Source: a virus | DNA length: 36,751 bases | Strand: one strand, 5' to 3' | IMG/VR virus record: IMGVR_UViG_3300025769_000345 | Location: 1 to 36,751 of that record | In this document: positions 1-35,610 of the stretch, in pieces | Layout of the letters: every line of letters begins with the position of its first letter | How positions within the stretch are numbered: position 1 is the stretch's first letter | Program-made: the position numbers and the translations under genes | Notes under the pieces: model-generated | The model's database searches: none | Seen by the model: the letters and a program-made list of their open reading frames with translations, nothing else | Told to the model about the DNA's origin: nothing

Positions 1-98
1 TTCTTAAGGCCACAGTCGTAGTAACAGTATTGGAATAGTTGGTTACCGCCCTGTGTCCAAGCATGATTGAACGAAACAAATGCAAGGACACAGAGCAT
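1..98 (-). CDS. Partial small secreted protein (5' end only)
   Basis: An open frame begins with ATG five bases after the stop of the neighbouring tail gene and runs off the left edge, giving 32 codons. The visible N-terminus (MLCVLAFVSFNHAWTQ) looks like a short signal peptide with a possible cut after NHA. It is followed by a Cys/Tyr-rich stretch, QYCYYDCG. Small exported proteins of this style are common at the ends of marine phage tail clusters, but the family role is unknown to me. The position as last visible gene of the late unit fits. Only the first third or so is present, so the call is tentative. Confidence 0.5.
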   Translation of the reverse strand, partial: MLCVLAFVSFNHAWTQGGNQLFQYCYYDCGLK

Positions 99-102
99 TG
101 TA

Positions 103-603
103 CTATGGCTTAGTAGGCCAGTCAGCCTCTTCCAAGTTAGGCCAGTTAGCGTGGGTTGTAATGTCACGTAGAGCTTGACGATACGTAGTCATTTCAGCAG
201 ACATTGTTACATCTGAGAGTGCCATCCAGTCTGTTTCAGTCAGCAACCCATCACGCTTGGTGCGGTTAGCTGTGGCAGTATTGGCATCCAGTGTGGCCTG
301 ATAAGCCGCCTCATGCTCTGCCTTAGTGGTTGTTACGCCATCCTCGTCAGTCGTATCAGCAAACATATCACGGGCAACGTAGTTCTCTACCCAGTTGCCG
401 TTAGCATCTTGGACAACACCATCACGCACAGAATTCTGATATGCCGTTGTGGTAGCCGCTGGGCTGCGTAGCACTGGGTCTAGGTCTAGTGCGTCTAGTG
501 TGGCTGCTTTCCATACACGAGGCAAAGACATGTTGGGGTTAGCTGAACGCCATTGCCCCTGTGTCTTCACTTCGCCTGTTGTTCTGTTGCGGTATTCTGA
601 CAT
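103..603 (-). CDS. Tail assembly chaperone-like protein (Phage_tail_APC type), copy 1
   Basis: This 166-residue protein ends in a C-terminal module of about 50 residues (LRDITTHANWPNLEEADWP) that matches the pattern of the Phage_tail_APC family: a DW motif, then YRQALRDIT, then a WP.KP end. The same module closes the gene at 5666-6133, so the two are paralogues. The N-terminal part is not recognised. An AGGAG ribosome site lies just before the ATG. Proteins with this domain sit beside tail-fibre genes and are thought to help fibre or tail assembly; the exact role here is inferred from position. Confidence 0.7.
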   Translation of the reverse strand: MSEYRNRTTGEVKTQGQWRSANPNMSLPRVWKAATLDALDLDPVLRSPAATTTAYQNSVRDGVVQDANGNWVENYVARDMFADTTDEDGVTTTKAEHEAAYQATLDANTATANRTKRDGLLTETDWMALSDVTMSAEMTTYRQALRDITTHANWPNLEEADWPTKP

Positions 604-629
604 GATTGATATTCTCCTGTGTCAGTTGA

Positions 630-2558: not shown

Positions 2559-2570
2559 TATTGTAGCTCC

Positions 2571-3308
2571 TTATGCTAATGCTTGACCCGCCGTGAAGCC
2601 GTACCAGTTAGTCCCACCATCCCGTGTGGTGAACACGAAGATGTCCTTCGCACTAGCAGTTGCTGTCAGGGTTGGAGCAGTTGCCGCTGGAAAGTCTACG
2701 CTTGCAGGCCATGTAACTGTGTAGCCAGAAGCTGAAGCATCTTGGATGATCTCGATGGAGAACGTGTAGGACGTGCCGCTTGCTGGTGGGTTGCTGAAGG
2801 TGAACGTGGTGTTGCCTGATAGAGTTAAGCTGAAGGAGTTACCATTGTGGCAGTTGACCGCTGGGGATGTACCAGAGAGGGCAGCGTAGGTTTCGTTGTA
2901 GCTACCTGCGATTAGTTCACCTGCTACATCTCCACTATCACTAGCTAAAGTACCTGTAATATTCACCCCTGTGCTAGTTGTGTTTAGCCTCTTGCCATTA
3001 TCATAGTACAATTCCACAGCATTATCAGCCAAGAACACAGCCATGTTCTCACCTGTTGCACTTTCAATTTGAACATTGCTTGAGCCTTGAATGTAAAGAA
3101 CGCCCTGACCTTGGTCACTGATGTAACTATTGCCGCCATCGTGATAAATCTGCAAGTCACTGCTATCGCCTAGCTGTATCTTATCGTTATCTTTTAAGTT
3201 AATGCTGCCACCATCAATGTTTACATTATCCTTATCCTGATACGCCATTGTACCAAGGTCAGCATTTGTAGGCACCTGATCGGGGTTTGTTCCAGTAAGT
3301 TTAGCCAT
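2571..3308 (-). CDS. Short tail fibre protein sharing its C-terminus with the long fibre
   Basis: A 245-residue protein. Residues 45-120 carry a motif frequent in marine phage fibres (DLQIYHDGGNSYI, then VELYYDNGKRLNTTSTGV). The last 80 residues (TFTF, TWPASVDF, TTRDGGTNWYGFTAGQALA) closely match the end of the 1,134-residue fibre at 7246-10650. It therefore looks like a shortened relative of that fibre: same tip-proximal motif and same C-terminal cap, without the long repetitive shaft. The start overlaps the upstream stop as TAATG, suggesting coupled translation. Role inferred: an accessory or alternative receptor-binding protein. Confidence 0.65.
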   Translation of the reverse strand: MAKLTGTNPDQVPTNADLGTMAYQDKDNVNIDGGSINLKDNDKIQLGDSSDLQIYHDGGNSYISDQGQGVLYIQGSSNVQIESATGENMAVFLADNAVELYYDNGKRLNTTSTGVNITGTLASDSGDVAGELIAGSYNETYAALSGTSPAVNCHNGNSFSLTLSGNTTFTFSNPPASGTSYTFSIEIIQDASASGYTVTWPASVDFPAATAPTLTATASAKDIFVFTTRDGGTNWYGFTAGQALA

Positions 3309-3691
3309 TATTCATCTCCCGCCCACTTGCGATACGGTGTCGCTGGTGCATCTACGGTTGGCAGTGAAGCCACCTGTTCATCTGTTAGCTCTTCACGAAG
3401 GTTTGCGTGGTAGCCATCAACAGCTTCCATCTCGGCATACTCCATGCCCTCACCGTCAGTCAGCATAGTGCCTGTCGCACGATACATGGTGCCGATGATG
3501 TCGAGCATGGGCGTGTCCGCCATCCACTCGTATGCGCCGCTGGGGCCATCCCACTCAGCGTCTGGCTCTAAGTCATCAGGACGACTATTGAGTGCATCAG
3601 TGGGATCATACTCTTTGTGTGCCAGCGATGCAGCTTCTAGGGCTTCCCAGAGTGCCACTTCGGAGGGGGCTTTGAGGTAATACGTTGTCAT
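3308..3691 (-). CDS. Small acidic protein of the tail-fibre cluster, unknown
   Basis: I do not recognise this 127-residue acidic protein. It is rich in Asp, Glu and Ala, has no membrane segment or signal peptide, and contains paired aromatic and acidic stretches such as AYEWMADTPMLDIIGTMYR. It is sandwiched between two fibre genes with junctions of one to a few bases, so it is almost certainly translated with them. A fibre chaperone or a small attachment protein would fit the place, but nothing in the sequence proves it. Confidence 0.6.
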   Translation of the reverse strand: MTTYYLKAPSEVALWEALEAASLAHKEYDPTDALNSRPDDLEPDAEWDGPSGAYEWMADTPMLDIIGTMYRATGTMLTDGEGMEYAEMEAVDGYHANLREELTDEQVASLPTVDAPATPYRKWAGDE

Positions 3692-3694
3692 AGC

Positions 3695-5653
3695 TTATGC
3701 CTCCGTCATGGCTTGTAGGGTGGCTGATGAAAGTGCCTTTGGGTATAGGGCAACTTTACTAATGTGCGCACATTTTCTACTTACAGCGTTAAACGTTCCG
3801 TATCCTATGGTTAGTTTAATATCATCAGGAGTTGCCGCTAAGAAGGTGATACCTCCATCGCCATTGTCAACACTTGATATTTCCCCGTTCATTGCATAGT
3901 ACACAGGAACAGTCCCAGATGTTCCTTCCCACGAGATTGCTATCCTGTTTTTACCGTTTAAGGGGCTAACTCCTGAATTAATATCGCCGCCGTGAGTTGG
4001 CTGGTAATACCCACTAGGGCTATTAGAATAACCAACACCAAGATAGTTATTATTATCCTTACCTATTGAAGCAGCAAATGCAGCCTTTGTGTTGTCTGGG
4101 TCATAGATTGCGTCAACTTGGAATGTGCCTTCAATAGTGTTGATGTAGTTCAGCATTGTAGCTTCAAGGATTTCGGCAGTATCAACCGCCCTAGTCACAG
4201 TAGACCCAGAGGTGGGGATGTATGACGTTGGAAAGGAGCCGACTTCTACTTGTGCGCCCCAGACGTAGATGCCTGAGTAGCCATCGCCATCATATGAAAG
4301 TGAACCATTTTGAGCGCATGAATATACAGCAATGTTTGGGGTTCCTGTTGAGGCTGTTGTTACTGTGATAGAGCAACGATACCACCCATTTCCCACATCC
4401 TCCATTGAAGTAGGTGGGCTATTCGTTGCCGTCCCGACAGTACCGTTCGACAAATTATACCAAGTCCAGTAAGAGGTTGATCCGCTGTAGATGTTTAATG
4501 CTAAGTAATCACGCTCTGCCTTTTTTGCGAATAAAGACAACGTGTAGGTAGTGGACGCCGACATAGGTGGGAACGTGACCATGCTGTGGCTAATGCTTGC
4601 AGTAGTGTTTTCTTGTATTTTATTGCCAGAAAGAGTGCCGTCTGGAGCAACAACTGCAGCAGTAATTAGTGAAGAATTTGAAGTAGAAAAGTTAGAAAGA
4701 TCACCAGACTGCGTCAGCAAATTCGTCCGAGCTTCCTCAATCAGCAGCCCTTTGCTTTCACCTGTCACTGGATCGTGGTCAAACCGTGCCTCACCGGATG
4801 CCGCTGTTTGCAGCACTGGCTGGTATTTCACGATGGGGCTAGAGGTTGTCGCTGTGTAGGCTGTGGCGGAACTGCGCTGTTCTAGCTGGAACCCCCAGAT
4901 AAAGAACTCAGAGCCTGACGCAATGTTAGTAGCTGGCGCACCGTTTCCTGTGCTGTCTGCAAAACTAGCGTCAACAAATATAGTTTGCGCAGTGCCTGCT
5001 GATGTCCCAGAAAACGTTACACGATACCAGCCATTGCCCACATCTGTTGTTGTTGGAGTGCCTTCATCTGTACCCACTGTAGTGCCGTCTGAAAGATTTA
5101 TTGTCCTAGCAGATATTGTGTCAATATAACCATTGCCGCTAGTCCTTGACTGCATATTTACACGAACATAATCCCAGTTTGACTTCTTCAAGTATACGCT
5201 TGCAGTGTACGCTGTTGAGGCCAATCCTACGGGGCTTTGAGCCACGTTTCGATATGGACCTTCAGTTGTAATCTCAATTGTATTAGCTGTTGTTGTTCCA
5301 TCAGGCGCAGTTGTTGTATTAGCTGTACTTGTTGTGCCAGAACCTGCCCAAGGCGAAAGTGTCGTATTCTGACTGTAGGTAATCAAATTCTCCTCTGCCT
5401 TAGCCGTGGTCTTACCATCCCAGTAAGTCGCAGTGGAGCCACGGGTAAACGTGATCCGTGGATCAAGGGTCTTGCTGTTCGCAAAGTCTAGCAGAAGGGA
5501 CGGGCGAATGTCGGGGAGGTCAGCAGTATTGTCTAGCTGGTTAAGTTCTGCAGCAGATGCAGTGAGGTCACTAATCTCTGATACACTAATAGCCCCATCA
5601 GCCAGTGGATTACCCGCTGCGATTAGGTTTGCTAAGTCTCTTGCTTTTGTCAT
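3695..5653 (-). CDS. Tail adhesin with two tandem carbohydrate-binding-like modules
   Basis: A 652-residue protein with two related beta-sandwich-like modules. Module one begins near residue 88 (ENLITYSQN) and contains YTASVYLKK, DVGNGWYRVTFSG and FIWGFQLEQ. Module two begins near residue 315 (RTNLLTQSGDL) and repeats the pattern as YTLSLFAKK, DVGNGWYRCSITV and YVWGAQVEVGSFPTSYIPT. A third C-terminal region (about 500-652) resembles a lectin-like domain and ends KVALYPKALSSATLQAM. The pattern DPRITFTRGSTATYWDG before module one is typical of phage tail proteins carrying sugar-binding domains. Binding of host surface glycans is inferred, not shown. Confidence 0.65.
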   Translation of the reverse strand: MTKARDLANLIAAGNPLADGAISVSEISDLTASAAELNQLDNTADLPDIRPSLLLDFANSKTLDPRITFTRGSTATYWDGKTTAKAEENLITYSQNTTLSPWAGSGTTSTANTTTAPDGTTTANTIEITTEGPYRNVAQSPVGLASTAYTASVYLKKSNWDYVRVNMQSRTSGNGYIDTISARTINLSDGTTVGTDEGTPTTTDVGNGWYRVTFSGTSAGTAQTIFVDASFADSTGNGAPATNIASGSEFFIWGFQLEQRSSATAYTATTSSPIVKYQPVLQTAASGEARFDHDPVTGESKGLLIEEARTNLLTQSGDLSNFSTSNSSLITAAVVAPDGTLSGNKIQENTTASISHSMVTFPPMSASTTYTLSLFAKKAERDYLALNIYSGSTSYWTWYNLSNGTVGTATNSPPTSMEDVGNGWYRCSITVTTASTGTPNIAVYSCAQNGSLSYDGDGYSGIYVWGAQVEVGSFPTSYIPTSGSTVTRAVDTAEILEATMLNYINTIEGTFQVDAIYDPDNTKAAFAASIGKDNNNYLGVGYSNSPSGYYQPTHGGDINSGVSPLNGKNRIAISWEGTSGTVPVYYAMNGEISSVDNGDGGITFLAATPDDIKLTIGYGTFNAVSRKCAHISKVALYPKALSSATLQAMTEA

Positions 5654-5665
5654 TTAGTTATCCTC

Positions 5666-6133
5666 TTATGCAGGCTTTACAGGCCAGTCAGCCTCATTAA
5701 GGTTTGGAAAGTTAGCGTGGCTTGTGATGTCCCTCAGTGCCTGACGATATGTTGCCCATGCTGTAGCATCTACGGGGGCGTCAGCTACTTGTGTCCAGTC
5801 AGATTGCATTAAAAGATTATCACGCTGCCCACGATTAGACAAAGCAACGCTATCGTCCCACGCCTGTGTCTCTTCAGCGGTCTTGCTTGATGTAGTCCAG
5901 CCAACAGTCCAAGCGCCAGCAACCAAAGATGGTGTAGCTTCCTGTTCAACCTTCTGTGTACGGTCATCGATGCTAGGCATGTCTGTATATACAACAGTGT
6001 ATACGCCATAGCTTTCAAGCATCTCACTAGGGATTTGCTTTGGGAACGAGGTGTTAGAGTTGTCACGGCGTAGTTGCCCTACGGAATAGGGGTATGTATC
6101 TACACTACCGCTTGTAATTTTGACGAGCGACAT
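5666..6133 (-). CDS. Tail assembly chaperone-like protein (Phage_tail_APC type), copy 2
   Basis: A 155-residue protein whose last 60 residues (DNLLMQSDWTQVAD, then YRQALRDITSHANFPNLNE) match the C-terminus of the gene at 103-603 almost residue for residue. The N-terminal halves differ: this one starts MSLVKITSGSVDTYPYSVGQL. An AAGGAG site precedes the ATG. The two copies bracket the adhesin genes, so each may serve a different fibre. The family assignment rests on the C-terminal pattern only. Confidence 0.7.
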   Translation of the reverse strand: MSLVKITSGSVDTYPYSVGQLRRDNSNTSFPKQIPSEMLESYGVYTVVYTDMPSIDDRTQKVEQEATPSLVAGAWTVGWTTSSKTAEETQAWDDSVALSNRGQRDNLLMQSDWTQVADAPVDATAWATYRQALRDITSHANFPNLNEADWPVKPA

Positions 6134-17468: not shown

Positions 17469-19518
17469 TGAATCCTTGTTCTTGTGGTGTAGGTACTTGG
17501 CCCGTACCTATGTTACCGCCACCTGCTCCAGTTGGGTCCATAGGGTTACCACCTTGTACTGGAGGTTGTTGTTGTTGAAAACCCTTCATGAGTTCAGCTT
17601 GAATTGCAGCTTCATCCATGTTATTAGTTACTTTGTCAGGGTCTAGTTCAAGAGACTTTGCAATCTCACGTATAATATACTGGAATTTTGCAAAAGGTGC
17701 AAGGGTAGGATTAGAAGAAATTTGCATAAATTGCATTAATCTTTGACTACGTACTTCATTAGCCATAAGACTTTCTGTGCCACGAGCTTTAACTTCTAAG
17801 TCACCTTTGATATTTGGATCAAAGTCAAACTGCATGTTAAAGCGAAATAGACCTTCGCCTAGTGGACGCAGTAGGTAGTCATCTACATTTTTAATAACAC
17901 TTTTAATGCCGCCTTGTGCAGCACCCATAAGCATAGAAATACCTGAAGCTGTACGTCCTACACCTGACACACCTGTTTGACCGTGTGCAAAAGATGGGAA
18001 GCCTGTGCTTTCATCTGCAAGTACACGTGCCTTATCAAAAAGCTGTAGGTTTTCGCCGGATACGTTAGGAAACTTAGTACCAAAGATAGCTTGGCCCGGT
18101 GCACCACCCTGTCTGCGGAACACTTTACCGGGGTACACTGACATGTCTTGTCCCGGTACAAGGTTAGTTTCATCTACTTCTAGGATCAAGTTACCTGACA
18201 GTACGGCATTATCTACAGCCATACGCATGAAACCATTCATAAGTGTTTGAGTATCGTCCATGTTTTCGGCAATACCTACACCAAAGAATGAGTAAGGGTT
18301 TAATTCATATGGTGCAGCCATGTAAGGAATACGTGCAGGTTTAAATGGATTAAGAACCATACGCAGCAACTTACCGTTACAAATCCAAACGTTTGCCTGT
18401 AATTCATCCACTTCAGATAGTTCATCTGGAATGTCTACGCCTTGCTCTAGTAGCATATCAACGTCTACCATACCCCAGTACTCTAAAACTTCAAAACGTT
18501 CTATACCGTGGTCAGGAGAATAATCAGATAGATCATCTTCCCAATATTCTTTAGTGTAGTTTTCACCAAGTTGAATTGCTTCATCAATTACATTAGAACG
18601 AAAGAAAGGTCTACGCTTAAGACCACGCAATTGACTACGTGACATCTTATGACGTTCAATTACGTACTGAGCTTCATCCATGTTTGTTGCATCTGGGTCT
18701 GGATAAAAGTTCCAAACTGATACATGAGATACCTGTGGAATAGTTTTAATACTAGGTGAGTATTCACCATCCTCATTCCAACTAGGGTATTCTTTGTCTA
18801 CAGCAAACGGACCCTTCATAACACCAGTACCAAACAGTGCCATCTCAAAGGCAGTACTACGCAAGTGTTTACTTGCACCGGACTCTTCTAGCTGGTCATG
18901 TATTTTCTTCTGCATCATTTTAGCGGCAACCATAGCTGGGCTAAATGTAACAGAAGTAGGTGTTTTACCTGCACCCTCACGGACGTTATCAACACCTTCA
19001 AACTTATTCTTTAGTGGGCCTAAACTTTCGGCAAGTGTCTTTGCAGTTGCACCTGCTGGTATATCACGATTATCACCGGGATAACCGTATGGGCTTACCT
19101 CTTCTTCTAAGCCTGATTCACGCAACTGTTCTGGCTCTGCAGGGTCAAAACTAACATCTGCAACTACACCTTCCGGTAGTTCAGTAGGGTCTACAGACAA
19201 TGGAAACTTTTGTGCCGCAAATAGTACATCTACAATCTGACCATACGCAGCAAGTGTTTTTGTTTTAGTAACTTTAATAAACACACGAGACTTTTCAGCC
19301 TCTGTAAACTGTACGTCTGGACTGTATAGACCACGATAGTTTCGATAAGAACGTAACCAACGTTGCTCATCTTGCTGTCGGTAGTCATCTGCACGGTTAT
19401 ATTTTTCCATAATAAATGGAATAATATTAGAAGTGTCGGCATCATCAACAGATGAATCATCACTATCTTCTAGTGCAATAGCTTCATCTTCGATAAAGTT
19501 GTCGTTATCTTCTGCCAT
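17395..19518 (-). CDS. Portal protein (head-to-tail connector)
   Basis: A 707-residue protein following TerL in transcription order. The N-terminus is acidic; the body contains the portal-like patterns NIIPFIMEKYNRADDYRQQD and QRWLRSYRNYRGLYSPDV, then WNFYPDPDAT near 270, and PYSFFGVGIAENMDDTQ near 430, which resembles the region shared by podoviral portals. The C-terminus is Gln/Pro/Gly-rich. Portal proteins form the dodecameric ring for DNA entry and exit. An AGGA site precedes the ATG. Length and order fit, so the call is firm. Confidence 0.85.
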   Translation of the reverse strand: MAEDNDNFIEDEAIALEDSDDSSVDDADTSNIIPFIMEKYNRADDYRQQDEQRWLRSYRNYRGLYSPDVQFTEAEKSRVFIKVTKTKTLAAYGQIVDVLFAAQKFPLSVDPTELPEGVVADVSFDPAEPEQLRESGLEEEVSPYGYPGDNRDIPAGATAKTLAESLGPLKNKFEGVDNVREGAGKTPTSVTFSPAMVAAKMMQKKIHDQLEESGASKHLRSTAFEMALFGTGVMKGPFAVDKEYPSWNEDGEYSPSIKTIPQVSHVSVWNFYPDPDATNMDEAQYVIERHKMSRSQLRGLKRRPFFRSNVIDEAIQLGENYTKEYWEDDLSDYSPDHGIERFEVLEYWGMVDVDMLLEQGVDIPDELSEVDELQANVWICNGKLLRMVLNPFKPARIPYMAAPYELNPYSFFGVGIAENMDDTQTLMNGFMRMAVDNAVLSGNLILEVDETNLVPGQDMSVYPGKVFRRQGGAPGQAIFGTKFPNVSGENLQLFDKARVLADESTGFPSFAHGQTGVSGVGRTASGISMLMGAAQGGIKSVIKNVDDYLLRPLGEGLFRFNMQFDFDPNIKGDLEVKARGTESLMANEVRSQRLMQFMQISSNPTLAPFAKFQYIIREIAKSLELDPDKVTNNMDEAAIQAELMKGFQQQQPPVQGGNPMDPTGAGGGNIGTGQVPTPQEQGFSGNAEGQGAPQQAQAAGQQPPAVG

Positions 19519-25872: not shown

Positions 25873-26077
25873 GTCCGTCCGTCCAACCTTCCATACGCAT
25901 AGCCCACTCTACGTGCTCTAACGTAAATGATTTACCGTAGTGGGCATCCACTGCAGTCTTTACATAAAATACATCACTATGAGGAATGTGCAACTTATCT
26001 AAGTTACCATCTAATACATGTTTATAGAACTCTTCCAAAACATTGTCTGTATATAGTTTTACTGATTTTTTAGCCAT
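25862..26077 (-). CDS. First gene of the late unit, unknown
   Basis: A 71-residue acidic protein starting MAKKSVKLYTDNVLEEFYKH. I prefer this ATG over a TTG six bases upstream. The pattern HSDVFYVKTAVDAHYGKSFT followed by LEHVEWAMRMEGW is alpha-helical. No motif is recognised. It is the first leftward gene after the divergent control region, so it would be the first late (or leftward) product made. Confidence 0.6.
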   Translation of the reverse strand: MAKKSVKLYTDNVLEEFYKHVLDGNLDKLHIPHSDVFYVKTAVDAHYGKSFTLEHVEWAMRMEGWTDGHDG

Positions 26078-26150
26078 TGTCAATACTTAATTACAAATCT
26101 CTCGCCTAAAGGCAATTTTCACTTACGTATATACTACATGTAAGTGTTGT

Positions 26151-26237
26151 ACTGTACGTGTATACTTATATGTTTATATAGTTAAGTATAATTATAAGTA
26201 AGTATATATACATTTAACTGTTTCACTGTACGTGTAT
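26151..26237. repeat. Direct repeat ACTGTACGTGTAT, two copies
   Basis: The 13-mer ACTGTACGTGTAT occurs at 26151-26163 and 26225-26237, spaced by 61 bases, in the divergent control region. Each contains the near-palindrome GTACGTGTAT. Confidence 0.6.
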
Positions 26238-26275
26238 CACTTTAAGTGACCCTACCCTAACACCTAACATATATA

Positions 26276-26303
26276 GTTTTACACATTCTACAATACATGT
26301 CAA
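26276..26303 (-). promoter_or_regulatory. Candidate promoter of the leftward late unit
   Basis: Leftward reading gives TTGACA (26303-26298), a 16-base spacer and TAAAAC (26281-26276), about 200 bases before the first leftward gene. The spacing equals that of the capsid promoter. The -10 matches at 4/6, so it is a moderate candidate. Confidence 0.45.
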
Positions 26304-26371
26304 CCCCTAATCGTATAGTGTGTATGTATTGTGATATATGTTACAGCTTTGTTACACGTATGTTACTTACT

Positions 26372-26432
26372 ATTTGTGATCACGTATTAATGCCCCTACC
26401 CAAACTGTATTATACCATTTGTGATCACGTAT
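26372..26432. repeat. Direct repeat ATTTGTGATCACGTAT, two copies
   Basis: The 16-mer ATTTGTGATCACGTAT occurs at 26372-26387 and 26417-26432, 45 bases apart. Each holds the palindrome GTGATCAC. The second copy runs into TATAAT on the plus strand, so a bound protein could mask a -10 box. GATCACGT recurs once more near 27009. Confidence 0.65.
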
Positions 26433-26606
26433 AATAGGTCCACATCGGCCCTATGTACATGTAAACCAGTATATATGTAATGTGGTTAACAGTGATATTT
26501 CCTGATCTGTGTATTTGTACGTATATACTAACGTATACCCCCGGCATGGCCCCTGCCCACCCCCTCCTCAACGTGCAATTCTGCGCATAATGCAAGGTCA
26601 TGACGT

Positions 26607-26918
26607 GTGTTGAAAGCAAATATGCCATCACATTCCACCAACATACCGAAGGTATACATCAAATCAAACACTTACTTGTCTACGACAACTGTTATGCAAT
26701 CAGTTGCCACCATTTATGGTGATAGAAACAGGGAGATTTTCACATCGAAGATGTGTTGTAGATGCCGAGTACAAATACTATACCCCACCATCAGAGATGG
26801 TCATGTCACATATCCACAAGCCGTGCATAGCTCTGCCAATGGTCATTTGAAGTGTCCAACATTGGACGATACCATATACAAAGTATATGACAAATATGCC
26901 ACACAAATGGTGACCTAA
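26607..26918 (+). CDS. Possible small Cys-containing protein (tentative)
   Basis: A 103-codon frame starting at GTG (or ATG at 26622, giving 98 residues). It includes SKMCCRCRVQILYP and later GHLKCPTLDDT, which could form a metal site. Codon choice looks coding, but no clear ribosome site is seen and the family is unknown to me. The first copy of the 14-bp palindrome lies inside it and encodes CPTLD. It may be the first rightward gene or only a shadow. Confidence 0.4.
   Translation: MLKANMPSHSTNIPKVYIKSNTYLSTTTVMQSVATIYGDRNREIFTSKMCCRCRVQILYPTIRDGHVTYPQAVHSSANGHLKCPTLDDTIYKVYDKYATQMVT
26854..26867. repeat. 14-bp palindrome, copy 1
   Basis: GTCCAACATTGGAC, inside the tentative gene at 26607-26918. 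The half-sites GTCCAA and TTGGAC are perfect inverses; the centre is CA. Confidence 0.85.
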
Positions 26919-27031
26919 TCCAAGCTGGAGCCTCGCATGAGTTTAGCGCACGAACTTCGTAATTACTTGTAATTACTGCAGTCATCCGTGAAACGGCCTG
27001 CACCGAGGATCACGTCATGAGAAACCATGAC

Positions 27032-27066
27032 TTGACAACTTATACTATACTCTACTAGTTTATAAA
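27032..27066 (+). promoter_or_regulatory. Candidate early rightward promoter
   Basis: A perfect TTGACA (27032-27037) is followed by AT-rich sequence with tandem TATACT boxes (27041-27051) and TATAAA (27061-27066). None sits at the ideal 16-18 base distance, so the -10 is uncertain. Position just before the first early gene makes a promoter likely. Confidence 0.4.
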
Positions 27067-27107
27067 GAGAACTATATCTCACTATTTGTGAGAGATATAG
27101 GTTCTCT
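27066..27107 (+). promoter_or_regulatory. Long imperfect hairpin in the early leader
   Basis: Arms beginning AGAGAAC-TATAT-CTCAC pair with GTGAG-AG-ATATA-GG-TTCTCT across a TATTT loop. This gives 17 base pairs with a 2-base and a 1-base bulge. No T-run follows, so it is not a standard terminator. It lies 36 bases before the first early gene and may control its translation, or be an operator. The loop flank ACTATTTGTGA also occurs at the GTGATCAC repeats. Confidence 0.6.
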
Positions 27108-27142
27108 CATATAAACAGAGTATAGATAAAGGGACTACCGAA

Positions 27143-27715
27143 ATGACAAATTCAGCAACAACAAAAACTACCGAAGGTACTACAATCTCAGCTCTTGTAA
27201 AGGAAGGCAAAGCCTTAGCATCAATCTGGAAACAGACTAACAGTCTGAAACATACCATCAAAGCCTCTGGCTTCGACACCAGACTTGGCAAACTCTTACA
27301 AGAGTTGAAAGCTCAATCCACTTTGGATTCCGGTCAGATTAGTCGTCAAACTCTGACGATGTACGGCATCAATATCATTGATCGTCGTCGTCGTTCTGAA
27401 GCTCTGTGGTTCGTTGAAAACGAAGTAGAGTGCCGCAAGTTCATCGAAGATGGTAAGTTCAAAGGTACTTCACTTACTGCTTTGCAGAAAGCAATGCGAG
27501 ATGCAGCTAAAGCTGATGAAGAAACCACCGAAGGTGAAACGTCCAATGTTGGACAGTCTGATGCAGAACAGCCAAAGGCTGATACAACTAAGCCTCGTAT
27601 CTCTCACAAAGTGATGGTCAATACCATCATTGCTCAAGCCGAATTGAATGAGCTTGATCTTGAAGAGATCATCACTGATCTGATGGCTGCACTTGAAAAG
27701 CGTCAAGCTGCATGA
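27143..27715 (+). CDS. First early protein, unknown
   Basis: A 190-residue, mainly helical protein with a Thr-rich N-terminus, an Arg cluster (IDRRRRSEALWFVENEVE), an acidic Thr/Glu linker near residues 125-150 and a C-terminal helix (ELNELDLEEIITDLMAAL). I do not recognise it. The two-part build with a linker resembles a regulator or adaptor. As the first gene after the control region, and a carrier of palindrome copy 2, it is a candidate for the palindrome-binding factor, which is only inference. AAGGGA precedes the ATG. Confidence 0.7.
   Translation: MTNSATTKTTEGTTISALVKEGKALASIWKQTNSLKHTIKASGFDTRLGKLLQELKAQSTLDSGQISRQTLTMYGINIIDRRRRSEALWFVENEVECRKFIEDGKFKGTSLTALQKAMRDAAKADEETTEGETSNVGQSDAEQPKADTTKPRISHKVMVNTIIAQAELNELDLEEIITDLMAALEKRQAA
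27541..27554. repeat. 14-bp palindrome, copy 2
   Basis: GTCCAATGTTGGAC, inside the 27143-27715 gene, where it encodes SNVGQ. Confidence 0.85.
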
Positions 27716-27912
27716 GATACAAAGTATCTTCCTACAAAGCTAGTGTTGAGCAGGATATGCTCGACACAGCTATGGCACAGTTCTGTGAACTGGCAGAAGA
27801 AATGAACCGTCCAACATTGGACACTTTGATTGCCAACACGTTAACTCCAGAGGAGTTAAAGAAACGTATTCCCACATTAATCCACGATAGTGGATGGAAG
27901 GATTTAACATGA
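27712..27912 (+). CDS. Small early protein, unknown
   Basis: A 66-residue acidic helical protein (VEQDMLDTAMAQFCELAEEM, then LTPEELKKRIPTLIHDSGW). Its ATG overlaps the stop of the first early gene (ATGA) and its end overlaps the next start, so all three are coupled. Palindrome copy 3 sits in its middle and encodes RPTLDT. No motif is known to me. Confidence 0.65.
   Translation: MRYKVSSYKASVEQDMLDTAMAQFCELAEEMNRPTLDTLIANTLTPEELKKRIPTLIHDSGWKDLT
27809..27822. repeat. 14-bp palindrome, copy 3
   Basis: GTCCAACATTGGAC, inside the 27712-27912 gene, encoding RPTLDT. Flanks are AACC before and ACTTTG after, close to copies 4 and 5. Confidence 0.85.
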
Positions 27913-28121: not shown

Positions 28122-28181
28122 ATGTTTAATACTAACACTGAAACAAACCGTCCAATGTTGGACACTTTAAAAGGATGCTAA
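28122..28181 (+). CDS. 19-residue micro-ORF, possible leader peptide
   Basis: ATG at 28122 opens a 19-codon frame (MFNTNTETNRPMLDTLKGC) ending one base before the ATG of the next gene. Its first five residues, MFNTN, and the DNA before them (TTATATAA) match the start of the gene at 28458. It may be a leader peptide or a remnant of a duplicated gene start. No good ribosome site is seen, so coding is uncertain. Confidence 0.35.
   Translation: MFNTNTETNRPMLDTLKGC
28150..28163. repeat. 14-bp palindrome, copy 4
   Basis: GTCCAATGTTGGAC, 20 bases before the ATG at 28183 and inside a 19-codon reading frame. Flanks AACC and ACTTTA. Confidence 0.85.
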
Positions 28182-28182
28182 A

Positions 28183-28416
28183 ATGCAATTGCTTTATCCC
28201 AAAGGCTACGATGGTAATGTTGTTTTCGTAACAAGAAAATCAACCATGTCAGGCGAAGAAAATTGCCGCCTCATGTTCTTTACACACCGCCAGTATGACA
28301 ATTGGAAGAATGGTGGTAAGTGCATACAGGATGCTATGCCACAATTGTCTCCAGAGGATCGTGAGTTCCTCATGACGGGTATCACACCTGACGAATGGGA
28401 TGAGGCGTTTGCCTAG
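28183..28416 (+). CDS. Conserved small phage protein (REFLMTGITPDEWDEAF type)
   Basis: A 77-residue protein with a pattern I have seen in several phage families: a beta-rich N-terminus with RLMFFTHRQYDNW, then GGKCIQDAMPQLSPEDREFL and a C-terminal MTGITPDEWDEAF. The function is not known. AAGGA precedes the ATG, next to palindrome copy 4, so its expression may be controlled there. Confidence 0.75.
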   Translation: MQLLYPKGYDGNVVFVTRKSTMSGEENCRLMFFTHRQYDNWKNGGKCIQDAMPQLSPEDREFLMTGITPDEWDEAFA

Positions 28417-28424
28417 TTGAAACC

Positions 28425-28438
28425 GTCCAATGTTGGAC
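28425..28438. repeat. 14-bp palindrome, copy 5
   Basis: GTCCAATGTTGGAC in the gap between the 28183-28416 gene and the ATG at 28458. Flanks AACC and ACTTTA, as in copy 4. Confidence 0.85.
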
Positions 28439-28457: not shown

Positions 28458-28598
28458 ATGTTTAATACTAATGAATTGCGATTGATTGAGGAAGCTATAG
28501 AAAGCTATGGCTCACGTTGCAGTAATAACGAGTGGCGTGAGTTACTTGAAAAGGTACGCCGTGAAAGGTTTGACAGTAGAATTGAGGAATTAGTATAA
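28458..28598 (+). CDS. Very small helical early protein
   Basis: A 46-residue charged helical protein (LRLIEEAIESYGSRCSNNEW, then LLEKVRRERFDSRIEEL). GGAG lies eight bases before the ATG, and its stop overlaps the next ATG by one base (TAATG). Palindrome copy 5 lies 20 bases upstream. Function unknown. Confidence 0.65.
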   Translation: MFNTNELRLIEEAIESYGSRCSNNEWRELLEKVRRERFDSRIEELV

Positions 28599-29227
28599 TG
28601 TATCAACGTGATGTAAATGAGATCAAAGCCTTCGTAAAATGGCGTGGCCCAGATGCTTTGGTAAACACTGGCCTATTCGTATTGCTAACGATACAAGCTG
28701 GCCTGTCCACCGTCCGTGGTAGCATGGTCAAGGTTGAGCGTGATTGCTATGACGCTGACTGCCTATGGGGCAAAAAGGCTGAAGGTTACAAGTACCTTGT
28801 AGACAATGCAGAGTACCTGTACGGCAAGCTGTATCACATTGCCGACAACAAAGGCTATGAAAGTGTCGAGGCATGTGCCGATGTCATACAACTGTTTATG
28901 GCTGTACCCAATCTTGGCATGGTCAAAGCGGCCTTCCTTGCCCAATGCCTTGGGTTCAATGTAGCCTGTATTGACAGCCACAACATCAAGCGTTTGGGTA
29001 TCTCACCTAACCTTGTGAAGTCCCCACCTGCCACCATGAAACCTGCCACTGTACGCAAGAAGGTTGAACAGTATGTTGAACTGACCCAAGTTGAGGGCAG
29101 CGAGTATTGGTGGAACTCATGGTGTGAGTATGTAGCTGGCAATCGTGCCAACCGTGCATTAGATACTGGTGACGTAGTGTCTAGGTATCATGTAGAATGT
29201 GTAACATATGGATTTGAACATGGTTAA
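28598..29227 (+). CDS. HhH-glycosylase-like protein
   Basis: A 209-residue protein. Residues 103-132 carry VPNLGMVKAAF, a helix-hairpin-helix-like turn, then CIDSHNIKRLG, which resembles the VDTHV.R motif of HhH-GPD DNA glycosylases; Asp126 would be the catalytic acid. The rest is helical, as in that fold. No iron-sulfur Cys cluster is visible at the C-terminus. If right, it would remove or recognise modified bases early in infection. The similarity is short, so another helical DNA-binding role is possible. Confidence 0.55.
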   Translation: MYQRDVNEIKAFVKWRGPDALVNTGLFVLLTIQAGLSTVRGSMVKVERDCYDADCLWGKKAEGYKYLVDNAEYLYGKLYHIADNKGYESVEACADVIQLFMAVPNLGMVKAAFLAQCLGFNVACIDSHNIKRLGISPNLVKSPPATMKPATVRKKVEQYVELTQVEGSEYWWNSWCEYVAGNRANRALDTGDVVSRYHVECVTYGFEHG

Positions 29228-29390
29228 AAAAGTATCTGTGGGGGTTGTAAATCCTGTGGCTAAGGCTATGCTACAAGAACGCAAAGCCCCACAGGTAGTC
29301 TTACCCAAGAAGGGTAGCAAAGCTAAACGTAACCGCAAACAGGAGAAGTACGATGCAATACGAGATGCAAAACTTCATCAAGATGACTAA
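29220..29390 (+). CDS. Small basic early protein, unknown
   Basis: A 56-residue protein beginning MVKKVSVGVVNPVAKAMLQE, overlapping the previous stop; an ATG twelve bases earlier is also possible. The C-terminal half is strongly basic (KKGSKAKRNRKQEKYDAIRD). It overlaps the next gene by 38 bases in another frame. Composition suggests nucleic-acid binding, but no family is recognised. Confidence 0.6.
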   Translation: MVKKVSVGVVNPVAKAMLQERKAPQVVLPKKGSKAKRNRKQEKYDAIRDAKLHQDD

Positions 29391-29520
29391 ACGAAAAGCG
29401 TCCAATGTTGGACAGTCCAAGTTCAATGACGATTGGAAACGTGAACGTGACAAAGAACGCAAACGTAAACAGACATTGCGTAACAGTGTAACCAATTACC
29501 GCAGCAACAAGGTAGCCTAA
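29353..29520 (+). CDS. Small Arg/Lys-rich early protein
   Basis: A 55-residue gene that starts inside the previous one; AGGAG lies seven bases before the ATG at 29353, which decides the start. The product is very basic (DDWKRERDKERKRKQTLRNS) with no known motif. Palindrome copy 6 lies within it and encodes SNVGQ. It may be a nucleic-acid-binding peptide. Confidence 0.6.
   Translation: MQYEMQNFIKMTKRKASNVGQSKFNDDWKRERDKERKRKQTLRNSVTNYRSNKVA
29400..29413. repeat. 14-bp palindrome, copy 6
   Basis: GTCCAATGTTGGAC inside the 29353-29520 gene, encoding SNVGQ, followed two bases later by a half-site GTCCAAG. Confidence 0.85.
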
Positions 29521-29926: not shown

Positions 29927-30268
29927 ATGACAAACCCAACACAAAACACCCGCCCAGTAGTTAAATCCACAAACCCTGAGTTGTATGTACAGCACACATA
30001 CCACATGAAACGTGCAACTAAGTACACCTACAACTACTCATCTCTGGATGACTACATCGTGGAGAATTGGGACAACAAGTCAATCAAAGAGATTGCAGAA
30101 GACACAAACGAATACTTCAATCGTGTAGTATACCGTGTGCAACTGTTGCAGTCCCTCAATCTGCTGAAGACAAAGCGCAACATGGAGCGTGGTAAGTTGA
30201 TGCGTACTCGTAAGTACCTCATGACAAAACTAAAAGAAATAAATGCAAAGCTAGAAGGAGTCGCATAA
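29927..30268 (+). CDS. HTH DNA-binding protein (candidate regulator)
   Basis: A 113-residue protein. Residues 43-80 (YIVENWDNKSIKEIAEDTNE, then a second helix with YRVQLLQSLNLL) read as a helix-turn-helix of the type found in phage and bacterial regulators. The basic C-terminal helix (RTRKYLMTKLKEINAKLEG) could aid DNA binding or dimerisation. It is one of two candidates for binding the GTCCAA palindromes; that is inferred. AAGGAG sites flank it and its neighbour. Confidence 0.65.
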   Translation: MTNPTQNTRPVVKSTNPELYVQHTYHMKRATKYTYNYSSLDDYIVENWDNKSIKEIAEDTNEYFNRVVYRVQLLQSLNLLKTKRNMERGKLMRTRKYLMTKLKEINAKLEGVA

Positions 30269-31656: not shown

Positions 31657-32487
31657 ATGCCGTTTGATATTCCAGAATATTTAGACTTTGACGTAGCATT
31701 TGAGGACACACGTATGCCCGACAAGAAGTACGTCATCAATCAGACTACAGGTCAACCACTTGGTATCGTTGGTAAATCTTTCCAATGTGCATCGCATGGT
31801 GACTTCTTTCGTGGTGTAGTTGAGACAGCTACGGAGACACTATCTGAGCATGACTTGGAAGATGCAAAGTATGGCTTCCGTACTGCACGTAATGGTGCAT
31901 GGGCTATGCTTGACATCACCTTGCCCAACGTAACTATGGACATCAGCACCGACAAGTTCGAGACGGAGATCGGCAATCGTATCATCAGCCTTCATGGTAT
32001 TGATGGTTCGTGCAGCAACCAAGTGTTCTTTGGTGCAATTGATTTCTTCTGTACCAATGGCATGATTACAGGAGATCACGACAAAGTTCGCAAGAAGAAC
32101 ACATCTAACTTCTCAATGGAGAGCTTCATCTATGAGCTTAACCGTGCTCGTACAGATTTCTACCAACAGGCACAGCAGATGCAGGTGTGGGCGCATACCG
32201 ATCTCAAGTATGTAGACGTAAGCTCTTTGCTTGATGATATGCTTGGCTCTAAGCGTAAGTCAGAGAAGATGTACAGTCTGTACATGCAAGAGGCATCGAC
32301 ACGTGGTCACAACAAGTTTGCACTGTATAGTGCTATGACTAACTACGCTACCTATGCAGATGAACGTAACGGGTTCAACCTCAAGAACACTGGCAACGAC
32401 ACACAGGCCATCAGTATGTGGTCACGTGAGCAAGAGGTGAGCAAGTGGATCAGTGATGACAGGTTCCGTTTGTTGGAGGCTGCATAG
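31657..32487 (+). CDS. DUF932 phage/plasmid-like protein
   Basis: A 276-residue protein with the DUF932 pattern: MPDKKYVINQTTGQPLGIVG near the N-terminus, a central FFCTNGMITGDHDKVRKKN, and NKFALYSAMTNYATYADERN near the C-terminus. The family is common on phages and plasmids; its biochemistry is poorly known. The place just before the integrase and replication genes suggests a role in DNA metabolism or recombination. AGGAG precedes the ATG. Confidence 0.8.
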   Translation: MPFDIPEYLDFDVAFEDTRMPDKKYVINQTTGQPLGIVGKSFQCASHGDFFRGVVETATETLSEHDLEDAKYGFRTARNGAWAMLDITLPNVTMDISTDKFETEIGNRIISLHGIDGSCSNQVFFGAIDFFCTNGMITGDHDKVRKKNTSNFSMESFIYELNRARTDFYQQAQQMQVWAHTDLKYVDVSSLLDDMLGSKRKSEKMYSLYMQEASTRGHNKFALYSAMTNYATYADERNGFNLKNTGNDTQAISMWSREQEVSKWISDDRFRLLEAA

Positions 32488-32490
32488 TCT

Positions 32491-33594
32491 ATGCCTAAAC
32501 TACCACGCTACGTGCAACAACGAGTGTCACCCTCTGGGGTGATCTCATACCGCTTCAACCCACCGCAGTCCCTTGTAGACGAGGGGGTGGTTAAACGTGA
32601 GGAGTACGGCAGTGACATGAAAGAGGTGCGCAAGATTGTGAAGGAACACAACGCAGCTATTGATGCGTGGAGACATGAGCAGTCTCTTGTTATACAAGTA
32701 AAGCCCAACAGCAAGGTGACTGACTTGATAAACTTTTACTATCAGTCTAATGATTTCAACATGTTACGACCTAACACTAAAGTGGATTACAGATACTTCC
32801 TAACTGTGCTCCACCAAACAATGGGTACACGTAAGTATGAATTGGTTACACCAAAGATTGCCAAGGCTGCATATGAAGAGTGGGTGAAACGTGGTATTAG
32901 CTTTGCTAATCATGCAGCTACATGTGCAAGCCGTGTGTACAACTACGCAATACAAATGGGACACACGACACAGAACCCTTGGGCTAACATCAAACGCAAA
33001 TCAGTGACACAACGTAAGGTGGTGTGGAAACACGAAGATGTTATCCGGTTTCTTGATTATGCGTACAGCGATTACGAATACAGAAACGTAGGTCTGATTG
33101 TACAGATGGCATACGAATGGTGCCAGCGACTAGGTGACATGCGTAACCTCAAGTGGGAGAACATTAGTTTGTCTAAGCGTATACTGTATCTCGAACAGAG
33201 CAAGAGAAGGGCTGACGTAGAACTGCCTATATCTGAGGAGCTTTGTACTATGCTCAACGATCAACGAAACGACTTTGGTTTCCAAGAGTACGTGGCTCCC
33301 CATCCACGGCCTGTAAACGGTACGTATGAGCCGTATGCAATGGAGAGATTATCCAAGGTAGGGCGCAGAGTAATGCGTCTTGCAGGATTGCCAGAGGAGT
33401 TACGTCTTATGGACTTACGTAGGACAGGAGTAACACAGATGGTAGATGCAGGTGTACCACTACCCCAAGTGATGTCCGTAACTGGTCATGCACATGTGTC
33501 TTCCGTGAAACCCTATCTAAAAAATACGTACCACTCTGCAAATAGTGCATTGACACAAAGAAATGTAAGTGTACAATCGAGTGGTAACGAGTAA
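32491..33594 (+). CDS. int: Tyrosine recombinase / integrase
   Basis: A 367-residue tyrosine recombinase. The N-terminal half holds an arm and SAM-like core-binding domain. Catalytic residues seen: Arg213 (EWCQRLGDMRNL), the second box LMDLRRTGVTQM with Arg310, His333 in VTGHAHVSSVK, and the nucleophile Tyr342 (KPYLK). The usual His of HxxR is replaced by Met307. The substitution is not rare in divergent family members, but activity is unproven. No attP site or repressor gene was recognised nearby. It is only three bases after the DUF932 stop. Confidence 0.85.
   Translation: MPKLPRYVQQRVSPSGVISYRFNPPQSLVDEGVVKREEYGSDMKEVRKIVKEHNAAIDAWRHEQSLVIQVKPNSKVTDLINFYYQSNDFNMLRPNTKVDYRYFLTVLHQTMGTRKYELVTPKIAKAAYEEWVKRGISFANHAATCASRVYNYAIQMGHTTQNPWANIKRKSVTQRKVVWKHEDVIRFLDYAYSDYEYRNVGLIVQMAYEWCQRLGDMRNLKWENISLSKRILYLEQSKRRADVELPISEELCTMLNDQRNDFGFQEYVAPHPRPVNGTYEPYAMERLSKVGRRVMRLAGLPEELRLMDLRRTGVTQMVDAGVPLPQVMSVTGHAHVSSVKPYLKNTYHSANSALTQRNVSVQSSGNE
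33550..33577 (+). promoter_or_regulatory. Candidate promoter for the replication genes
   Basis: TTGACA (33550-33555), a 16-base spacer and TACAAT (33572-33577) inside the end of the integrase gene, about 40 bases before the primase start. Matches are 6/6 and 5/6. Confidence 0.5.
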
Positions 33595-33617: not shown

Positions 33618-34382
33618 ATGAATATAAATAACATCATAAGTGATCTATCATTAGTAAATGGTGAGACAAGGCGCATGACTTGCCCATCATGTAATACTAA
33701 GAATACTTTTACTGTTACAAATAACATGGGTTCTATTGTCTGGAATTGTTACAAGGCGAGTTGCTCTGTCTCTGGTGGTACACGTACAACACTGACCGCC
33801 GATGACATTCGCAAGTCTCTTGGACATGTTGCCGAAGAGACACACACTACAACTTTCGTCAGACCTGATTGGTTTGTACGAGACTACAAAAAACTTGAGG
33901 GCTTTTGCAACCAGTGGGAGCTTGACGCACAACAACTAGGGCTTATGTATGATGTCAAGGAACATCGTGTGGTATTCCCTGTTGTGCACAATGGAGTTAC
34001 TGTAGATGCCACAGGCAGATCACTTGGTAATCGTATACCTAAGTGGAAACGGTATGGAAAAAGTGTATTGCCATACAGTTCTGGACGTGGTAAAACTGCA
34101 GTAGTCGTTGAAGACTGCATAAGTGCTGCCGTTATAGGTGATGGTGGTGTATATGTTGGGGTAGCAGTGTTGGGTACATCGTTGTCTAATGGACACAAGG
34201 AGTACTTATCGCAGTTTTCAACGGCAATAATTGCACTAGACCCTGACGCACTACCCAAGACACTGCAATTTGCAAAGGAATTACGTGGCTACGTTGACAC
34301 AGTGAAGGTGTTGCGGCTACAAGATGACATCAAATACCGAATGCCAACCGACATGGCAAACCTTTCAGCACTAGGAGACTGA
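33618..34382 (+). CDS. DNA primase (zinc-ribbon and Toprim)
   Basis: A 254-residue primase of the T7 gp4 type, without the helicase half. A zinc ribbon is visible (Cys22, Cys25, Cys44, Cys49), followed by a Toprim fold with VVVEDCISAA (Glu165) and ALDPDA (Asp208, Asp210). It makes RNA primers for lagging-strand synthesis. It ends four bases before the helicase gene, so the two act together as in the fused T7 protein. Confidence 0.85.
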   Translation: MNINNIISDLSLVNGETRRMTCPSCNTKNTFTVTNNMGSIVWNCYKASCSVSGGTRTTLTADDIRKSLGHVAEETHTTTFVRPDWFVRDYKKLEGFCNQWELDAQQLGLMYDVKEHRVVFPVVHNGVTVDATGRSLGNRIPKWKRYGKSVLPYSSGRGKTAVVVEDCISAAVIGDGGVYVGVAVLGTSLSNGHKEYLSQFSTAIIALDPDALPKTLQFAKELRGYVDTVKVLRLQDDIKYRMPTDMANLSALGD

Positions 34383-34386
34383 CCCA

Positions 34387-35610
34387 ATGGAACTATCCCT
34401 TATCCGAAGCCTAATGGACAAAACATTCTACGATGAACATCGTGGTGCACGTTGTCCTGATCGACTCTTTAGTAAAGATGTACGTAAGATCAAGCAAGCA
34501 ATCGACACAGCTATGGATCGGTATGAGCGTACCGTAACACCAGCAGAGATTGAGGCTCTGTTCATGGCGAACAACCCCACCCTCACAACGGCACAGAAGC
34601 AGGCATACAGCCACTTGTTCCAGCAAGTGAGCAAGGAGCAGCCTATGGGTAGTGACGTAGCACAGGAAGTGCTATCAAAACTATTCCAACAGGTGGTGGG
34701 CGAAGACATTGCCAACCTTGGCTTTGACTATGTAAATGGTAGCAAGTCTAGCCTTGACCCACTACGTCAGATGCTTGAGCAATACGGTGATGACTTCACT
34801 CCCAACCTCAAGGTTGAGTGGGAGGACATTGACCTAGATACAATCATTGCAATGACTGACCTTGAGTCACAGTGGACATTCAACATCCCTACGTTGACAC
34901 GTAAGGTTGAGGGCATCAACGCTGGTCACCTCATTGAGGTAGGTGCTAGACCTAACACAGGTAAGACATCCTTTCATGCCTCACTTGTGGCTGGGCCTAA
35001 CGGCTTTGCATGGCAGGGTGCTAAGGTAGTTGTACTGTGTAATGAGGAAGGCTACCACCGTGTAGCTCACCGCTACATCACGGCAGCCACAGGTATGGAC
35101 AAGCACGAGATCGTTAAGAACAAGACACAGGCTATGGCAATCTTTGCCAAGATACGTGACAAGATCATGTTCAAAGATGCAACGGGACGTGACATGAACT
35201 GGGTTGAGTCGGTGTGCAAGTCATACAAACCTGATGTAGTTATACTGGACATGGGTGACAAGTTTGCACGTACCGCTGGCTTCTCACGACCTGACGAAGC
35301 ACTCAAGGCTAACGCTATTCATGCCAGACAGATTGCCAAGCAACAAGACTGTGCAGTATTCTACATGTCTCAGCTATCGGCAGAGGCAGAGGGTAAGGTT
35401 GTACTAAACCAAGCCATGATGGAGGGTTCACGTACAGGTAAAGCCGCAGAGGCAGACTTGATGATCATGATCTCCAAGAACCCTACAGTTGAGGGGCAGG
35501 AAGAAGAAGACAACCAACGCCACATCAACGTAGTTAAGAACAAGTTGTCCGGTTGGCACGGTATTGTACACACCGACTTGGAGTACAAGATTGCACGGTA
35601 TGTATCATGA
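34387..35610 (+). CDS. Replicative DNA helicase, DnaB/T7 gp4 type
   Basis: A 407-residue ring helicase. Motifs seen: Walker A GARPNTGKTS (186-195), a LCNEE segment (217-221) with the catalytic Glu, Walker B VVILDMGD (284-291), AVFYMSQLSAEAEGK (323-337), and KNKLSGW near 384 with the trans-acting basic residue region. The first 150 residues are helical and probably contact the primase. It unwinds the phage fork. AGGAG lies nine bases before the ATG. Confidence 0.9.
   Translation: MELSLIRSLMDKTFYDEHRGARCPDRLFSKDVRKIKQAIDTAMDRYERTVTPAEIEALFMANNPTLTTAQKQAYSHLFQQVSKEQPMGSDVAQEVLSKLFQQVVGEDIANLGFDYVNGSKSSLDPLRQMLEQYGDDFTPNLKVEWEDIDLDTIIAMTDLESQWTFNIPTLTRKVEGINAGHLIEVGARPNTGKTSFHASLVAGPNGFAWQGAKVVVLCNEEGYHRVAHRYITAATGMDKHEIVKNKTQAMAIFAKIRDKIMFKDATGRDMNWVESVCKSYKPDVVILDMGDKFARTAGFSRPDEALKANAIHARQIAKQQDCAVFYMSQLSAEAEGKVVLNQAMMEGSRTGKAAEADLMIMISKNPTVEGQEEEDNQRHINVVKNKLSGWHGIVHTDLEYKIARYVS

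Follow-up and report, generated by a model that had tools for sequence, protein, structure and literature searches.

A methionine-type integrase and a proposed palindrome-binding regulator in an HMO-2011-type marine podovirus

Can a phage integrase that carries methionine in place of the box II histidine still be expected to recombine DNA, and what would govern lysogeny in a phage with no visible repressor? Both questions are raised by one gene in the stretch of DNA analysed here (the window), an IMG/VR virus record of 36,751 bp. The first-pass annotation had described an otherwise lytic-style layout with helicase, primase and ThyX, and had offered two readings: either lysogeny is controlled by an unrecognised system, perhaps acting through GTCCAA palindromes, or the integrase serves another purpose such as genome resolution. 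The main find of the present analysis is a regulator-palindrome pair that appears to be a known kind of control in a new form, with good computational support for the recognition of the one by the other.

The nearest named relatives by integrase identity are CRP-345 (75%), CRP-1 (73%) and HMO-2011 (62%), and the window represents part of a marine podovirus of the HMO-2011 type (subgroup I), following the subgroups laid out in PMC9038755 and PMC6918029. Since the named relatives measure 53-55 kb, the window is probably a fragment, and some genes may be out of view. The neighbourhood of the integrase is as follows.

31657..32487, + strand: DUF932 protein, directly 5' of the integrase; a control gene in the covariation test below
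32491..33594, + strand: tyrosine recombinase (integrase), 367 aa, ATG start and open frame, with R213, K238, M307, R310, H333 and Y342
33618-34382, + strand: primase (family match), directly 3' of the integrase
34387-35610, + strand: DnaB-type helicase (family match), after the primase
36319: ThyX, as named from the sequence in the first-pass annotation

Only 3 nt separate the upstream gene from the integrase start, and 24 nt separate the integrase from the primase start. With the integrase so tightly packed among other genes, and with the DnaB helicase and primase matches confirmed, "lytic-style" is a fair description of the layout. In CRP-1, CRP-345, HMO-2011 and the subgroup III phage CRP-3, a homologue of the integrase occupies the same position, just ahead of the primase.

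The integrase and its box II methionine

The integrase matches PF00589 with an E-value of 1.7e-18 and 67.4 bits, against a cut-off of 27.1. Arg213, Met307 (codon 33409-33411), Arg310, His333 and Tyr342 all lie where they had previously been placed, and Lys238, absent from the earlier list, is present as well. In an alignment of 92 integrases (the window, 80 IMG/VR loci and 11 named phages), R213, K238, R310, H333 and Y342 are invariant (92/92). At box II, where membership in the family would lead one to look for His, the window integrase has Met, as do CRP-1, CRP-345 and HMO-2011; across the alignment the position is Met in 88, Arg in three (CRP-3, CRP-235 and CRP-212) and Ala in one (CRP-738). 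A larger set of 109 distinct clade integrases, picked by length and flanking motifs and thereby leaving out the CRP-3 group, gives Met in 108 and Ala in one. The dN/dS ratio of the integrase is 0.05-0.11 in six pairwise comparisons. Given this near-uniformity together with the low dN/dS, the Met is not damage to the window's copy; it is an old trait, retained while the protein evolved under purifying selection. For comparison, the best 30 PF00589 loci of alphaproteobacteria have His at this position in 27 cases and are unreadable in three, as scored by a crude regular expression that is biased towards Xer.

Published work on the family shows that box II tolerates change. Cre H289A reportedly still recombines, with reduced efficiency (PMC4381057); the position is Lys in SSV1-type and Tyr in pNOB8-type integrases (PMC8371274); and box II is weakly conserved in one tyrosine recombinase subgroup (PMC8138268). 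As active enzymes without the box II His are thus described in these sources, its absence does not exclude membership among the tyrosine recombinases. The substitutions named in the sections of PMC8371274 and PMC8138268 that treat this position are those of SSV1 (Lys), pNOB8 (Tyr), IntDes (Tyr) and IntBPP-1 (weakly conserved), and the clade-wide Met seen here is not among them. The box II Met is a new but mild variant. The suggestion that it signals another purpose is not supported: Met alone is no argument for a different function, because it is clade-wide, because the other catalytic residues are kept, and because CRP-3, with Arg at the same position, is reported to integrate (PMC6918029); the activity of Cre H289A, reduced as it is, speaks the same way. 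The window integrase is intact and is expected to be catalytically competent.

A structure model adds little on the active site: the catalytic part is poorly modelled (mean pLDDT 62), and Met307 can therefore not be placed in it. The N-terminus is modelled as three strands and a helix (residues 8-68, block pLDDT 70-89), which we take to resemble an arm-binding domain.

Palindromes of the early region and the protein g2

Six exact copies of GTCCAANNTTGGAC occur in the window, where a random 37-kb sequence with equal base frequencies would contain about 0.002, and the GTCCAA palindromes noticed earlier are thus real. They lie in and around the gene of a protein that we label g2.

26854..26867: operator-like palindrome 1, 289 nt 5' of the g2 start
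26934..27013, + strand: conserved structured element in the g2 leader, with compensatory changes in 9 of 15 pairs
27143..27715, + strand: g2, uncharacterised protein of 190 aa encoded close to the start of the early module, proposed here to bind the palindromes as a regulator
27541..27554: operator-like palindrome 2, within g2, in the linker between two helical parts (linker from the structure model)
27809..27822: operator-like palindrome 3, within ORF 27712-27912
28150..28163: operator-like palindrome 4, 33 nt 5' of the ATG at 28183
28425..28438: operator-like palindrome 5, just 5' of a possible ATG at 28458
29400..29413: operator-like palindrome 6, within ORF 29353-29520

Searches of the early-region proteins scanned returned no repressor family, which upholds the absence of a visible repressor to that extent. 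No confident Pfam, NCBIfam or PHROG match was obtained for the g2 family (32 g2 proteins), and no confident fold match for g2 (best Foldseek E 0.98, best VIA Z 4.3). The AlphaFold2 model is helical; its helix 81-92 begins RRRRSEALWF, with block pLDDT above 90 there.

In relatives the palindrome takes variant forms, namely GTCCGA/TCGGAC and, in HMO-2011, GTCCGNNNNCGGAC, with clade-specific flanks. In complete or long records, sites of the form GTCCRANNTYGGAC are concentrated in the early region; one extra site lies inside the integrase gene in each of CRP-345 and CRP-1, and CRP-345 has another at 14469. There are six sites in the window, 4-7 in each of nine IMG/VR records including the window, and 5-6 in CRP-1 and CRP-345. 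All 80 g2-seeded loci carry at least two GTCCRANNTYGGAC sites, a count that includes sites within g2 itself, whereas about 0.24 would be expected over the 1.02 Mb scanned. Among 12 named phages, g2 is found in CRP-345, CRP-1 and, distantly, as gp74 of HMO-2011, and exactly these three carry a repeated GTCC palindrome. The other nine have neither g2 nor the GTCC palindrome, though weak repeats of other kinds occur. The integrase does not require g2, which is missing from CRP-2, CRP-207, CRP-603, CRP-3, CRP-235, CRP-212, CRP-738, ctYwJ313 and from a MAG phage whose integrase is 66% identical. De novo searches of phages lacking g2 gave five copies of an AT-rich palindrome in HTVC033P and four copies of one in each of CRP-603 and ctYwJ313, against 2-3 in shuffles; for CRP-235, CRP-212 and CRP-738 the de novo scan covered the first 6.5 kb only, and the whole record was scanned for the GTCC pattern only. 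The match between protein and site is not perfect in the larger set. Six loci with no detected g2 do carry a TCCAA palindrome, and these we assume to be cut contigs; conversely, of 112 distinct g2 ORFs, 13 come from loci where no palindrome reaches three exact copies, and two more from loci with only an unrelated one.

The sequence of the sites follows that of g2. Starting from 184 loci with g2, many of them repeated contigs, we retained 98 non-redundant ones with at least three sites fitting a GTCC/CCCC pattern and a g2 no shorter than 150 aa (a filter that admits no other site types), of which 50 had all four genes under comparison. Across these 50 loci, the distance between site profiles correlates with the distance between g2 proteins at a Mantel rho of 0.84, compared with 0.14 for g11, 0.32 for DUF932 and 0.14 for the integrase. 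The g2 correlation stays at 0.83 given DUF932 (permutation p 0.001), while that of the integrase given g2 is -0.04. When only sites outside g2 are used, g2 still gives 0.79-0.82, as against 0.02 for g5, which lies among the sites, 0.24 for g15, and 0.52 for g9, which carries a site and falls to 0.20 given g2.

Natural variants agree with this pattern. In two loci of one lineage (L071 and L185), the g2 segment ID[KR]RRRSEALWF has become IPDQRRSEALWF, IPDQRR taking the place of the IDKRRR or IDRRRR that otherwise precedes SEALWF, and the palindrome has become CCCC..GGGG (CCCC[AG]ANNT[CT]GGGG, five copies in each). Further pairings, read by eye from a table, join the flanks of the site to the g2 stretch that precedes this segment: QISRQ or QIPTH goes with AAC.GTCC..GGACA, RISSQRL or RIPSQRL with TAAGTCC..GGACCTAA, and GRIKSTRL with AGTCC..GGACT. 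That g2 recognises the palindromes is therefore well supported by comparative evidence, although direct binding, and the part of helix 81-92 in it, are our inference.

The leader element between the first palindrome and g2 is conserved in its own right. It is present in 53 distinct sequences, while 39 loci did not fit the search pattern. Of 440 cells, 98.6% pair, and the covariation score is 0.447 versus 0.133 when shuffled, with both sides changing at nine of the 15 pairs. G-U exchanges are entirely missing, which could mean a DNA rather than an RNA structure, and region 26000-27200 has no Rfam match. A second strong leader hairpin (27061-27115, -18.2 kcal/mol by RNA folding) stands directly 5' of g2; by eye, its sequence has changed and the hairpin has been kept in several relatives.

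Two other features of the early region may be recorded. A sigma-70 consensus (12/12, 18-nt spacer) at 28570-28599 overlaps an ORF start at 28598; promoter-like sites overall are no commoner in the window than in shuffles. A 113-aa early protein (29927-30268), present in 46 loci with a conserved NEY..R..YRV stretch, looks helix-turn-helix-like by eye; no family scored above its cut-off, and the palindromes do not vary with this protein.

Protein g2 and the integrase keep constant company. Where at least 6.8 kb of downstream sequence is available, all 84 g2-seeded loci (59 distinct g2) contain the integrase, and g2 is present in all 15 integrase-seeded loci whose upstream sequence extends for 7.5 kb or more. 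When every locus is counted in which 8 kb or more precede the integrase, g2 is missing in three of 79, and these three are repeated copies of a single MAG phage. The linkage could simply reflect shared ancestry within one clade. A closer tie is seen within the integrase gene itself, where the palindrome GTCCAAGGTTGGAC falls in the codons L-S-K-V-G-R of 28 of 117 distinct genes. Of these 28, 24 make up one clade in the protein tree, which has the exact palindrome inside the gene in every member (24/24). Of 388 four-codon windows in this clade, the palindrome alone is invariant in nucleotides, whereas 66 windows are invariant in amino acids; the pattern points to selection on the DNA at this place inside the integrase gene. 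An internal site occurs in 10 of 56 genes with a wider search pattern, against 0.24 expected, and in 0 of 51 with a pattern that was too narrow. The window's own integrase gene is without an internal palindrome. For the 24-member clade, these sequence patterns suggest that the controlled genes include the integrase.

Attachment sites and integrated copies

CRP-3 is reported to integrate at tRNA-Met (PMC6918029). The primers given there map to 2829-2849 and 3642-3662 of CRP-3, and between them, at 3170-3208, lie 39 nt identical to a tRNA-Met gene. With this attachment site, its reported integration and its Arg at box II, CRP-3 differs from the subgroup I phages. As a positive control, the CRP-3 attP stretch matches 118 of 142 alphaproteobacterial genomes (best E 4e-16). 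In one of the genomes (G146), the tRNA-Met end that it matches occurs twice, at C1:2462-2504 and 27138-27194, about 25 kb apart, as if an element sat in tRNA-Met.

Sites of the tRNA type are likewise predicted in CRP-235 (L090:2997-3035, tRNA-Met, 39 nt), in CRP-212 (L091:2810-2852, tRNA-Met, 42/43 nt) and, more weakly, in CRP-738 (L092:2952-2978, 24-27 nt, tRNA-Lys or tRNA-Asn). The comparison set consisted of 60 tRNA-gene-bearing stretches from three alphaproteobacterial genomes, and against it the window, CRP-345, CRP-1 and HMO-2011 show no such site, their best matches being 14-19 nt versus the 39-43 nt of CRP-3, CRP-235 and CRP-212. If subgroup I integrates, its site, as judged from these matches, is probably not a tRNA gene. 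Nor did a recurrent host match emerge from the 142 genomes with the window leader alone (nine matches, best E 0.0034) or the CRP-1 leader (16 matches, best E 0.0021). The whole early region of the window, with two candidates scored per genome, matched 17 genomes at E <= 0.1, one match being the phage contig itself and the rest scattered. The conserved gap after the ribonucleotide reductase in CRP-345, CRP-1 and HMO-2011 was considered as attP and dropped, as by eye it reads as coding; in CRP-345 an unannotated frame that looks glutaredoxin-like by eye occupies 18452-18823 (L280:11453-11824), and the same gap of CRP-1 has one too.

The prophages and att sites by which the integrase might be checked in alphaproteobacterial genomes have so far not turned up, in a search with thin host coverage. 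The genome-contig search with the integrase alignment, in which two peptide patterns were used, gave five loci, all in MAGs, and no integrated copy was identified among them. A 62.8-kb MAG contig, considered as an insertion, has repeated ends (57150-62825 equals 71-5734 at 99.6%) and is thus a free circular phage. Four loci (L093-L096) are the same two phage contigs in MAGs of different phyla, Flavobacteriales TMED123 and Neomarinimicrobiota MED589; these contigs look misbinned, and one is circular by its end repeats. The other end of a Rhodobiaceae contig (L182) has no match to the window's proteins. Among 289 genomes of the class of genome G010, again with thin host coverage, two gave matches at E <= 1e-30 and no integrated copy was recognised: one is the Rhodobiaceae MAG contig already found, the other a distant His-type integrase. 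The latter (L260, genome G060) sits beside a tRNA-Arg(tct) gene and is probably a true integrated element.

A proposed switch and its alternatives

We propose that g2 regulates the early region in a sequence-specific manner; its likeliest role is that of a lysogeny repressor of the stoperator kind, with repression and lysogeny inferred. The early region, including the integrase, would be under the control of this phage-encoded DNA-binding protein of no known family. It would bind the 14-bp palindromes (GTCCRANNTYGGAC with clade-specific flanks) as a dimer, contacting DNA through helix 81-92. Its sites, scattered over the first ~2.6 kb of early genes, at gene borders as well as inside genes, would let bound g2 keep its own gene and those downstream switched off. 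Such a switch, of the operator/stoperator type, would suit lysogeny or immunity to superinfection. To the whole explanation, a competent Met integrase combined with a g2-palindrome switch over the early region, we assign a probability of roughly 0.55. The idea that control runs through the GTCCAA palindromes by way of an unrecognised system is supported, by sites in every g2-seeded locus scanned, by site sequences that track g2, and by the unbroken association of g2 with the integrase.

The arrangement recalls two known systems. In L5-like (cluster A) mycobacteriophages, many short sites run through the phage genes and motif distance tracks regulator distance (PMC6550527), as is found here, and the L5 repressor, like g2, has fewer than 200 aa. 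The L5 sites, as described in PMC6550527 and PMC9283540, are however asymmetric, 13-14 bp long, present at 20-30 per genome, oriented with transcription and bound by a monomer; those of the present phages are palindromic, number about 4-7 and are confined to the early region, and g2 matches no repressor family. Bacillus phage SPbeta also has dispersed repeats (SPBRE), bound by MrpR, a phage master repressor unlike CI (PMC10516654). MrpR has a recombinase fold, whereas no such similarity is seen in g2, which is small and helical.

The main rival, to which we give about one chance in four, keeps the palindromes and g2 and changes their meaning: g2 would be an early activator, an anti-terminator or another lytic timing factor, and the phage would in practice be lytic. 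Its position at the head of the early module, the restriction of the window's sites to early genes, the structured leader element between site 1 and g2, and the lack of any lysogen in the genome contigs or the 289 class genomes all suit this account. Sites within coding regions or at gene ends (27541, 27809 and 29400 in the window, with others in CRP-345, CRP-1 and HMO-2011) would be odd for an activator, and the integrase is kept in all 84 g2-seeded loci with enough downstream sequence. Distinctly less probable, yet next in order, is that the integrase resolves genome multimers or a plasmid-like prophage, the palindromes forming a parS-like partition or replication array bound by g2. An integrase within a replication operon with no room for an adjoining attP, the lack of a tRNA attP in three complete relatives, and the resemblance of dispersed palindromic sites to centromere arrays favour it; against it stand the integrase N-terminus, presumably arm-binding, the absence of any ParA among the names in the annotations shown for CRP-1, CRP-345 and HMO-2011, and the conserved palindrome inside the integrase gene, which fits transcription control better.

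Two further accounts fare worse. The palindromes might act as RNA hairpins, either terminators or processing sites, with g2 binding RNA or being linked by chance; a scan for terminator-like hairpins found seven in the window against 2.9 in shuffles, and four of the seven are the palindromes. We regard this as improbable, as the inner A/T beside the 2-nt centre stays symmetric, though that pair would be of no use to a hairpin whose loop is 2 nt, and the covariation is with g2 and not with neighbouring genes. More improbable still is that repression is the work of the integrase-like protein, as a recombinase fold that has lost catalysis after the manner of MrpR, which has such a fold and binds a repeated element (PMC10516654). 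The replacement of one catalytic residue by Met would be in keeping with it, but the five residues R, K, R, H and Y that are invariant here are mostly replaced in the MrpR table of that paper, and such a role is unlikely because the site sequences do not follow the integrase (rho 0.14, or -0.04 given g2).

Taken together, our results leave no ground for doubting the integrase on account of its box II Met. As its sites are mapped and both site and protein have natural variants, the candidate regulator g2 makes the question of regulation testable, and g2 with its palindrome type would offer a sequence marker for predicting immunity groups in viromes. HMO-2011 subgroup I is one of the abundant marine phage groups. 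As a more tentative extension, which we hold somewhat likelier to fail than to stand, g2 may be the founder of a new family of phage immunity repressors, acting as a dimer on palindromic stoperators that are spread over the early genes and, in one clade, occur within the integrase gene as well, and forming, with a Met integrase that uses a non-tRNA attachment site, the lysogeny switch of this subgroup.
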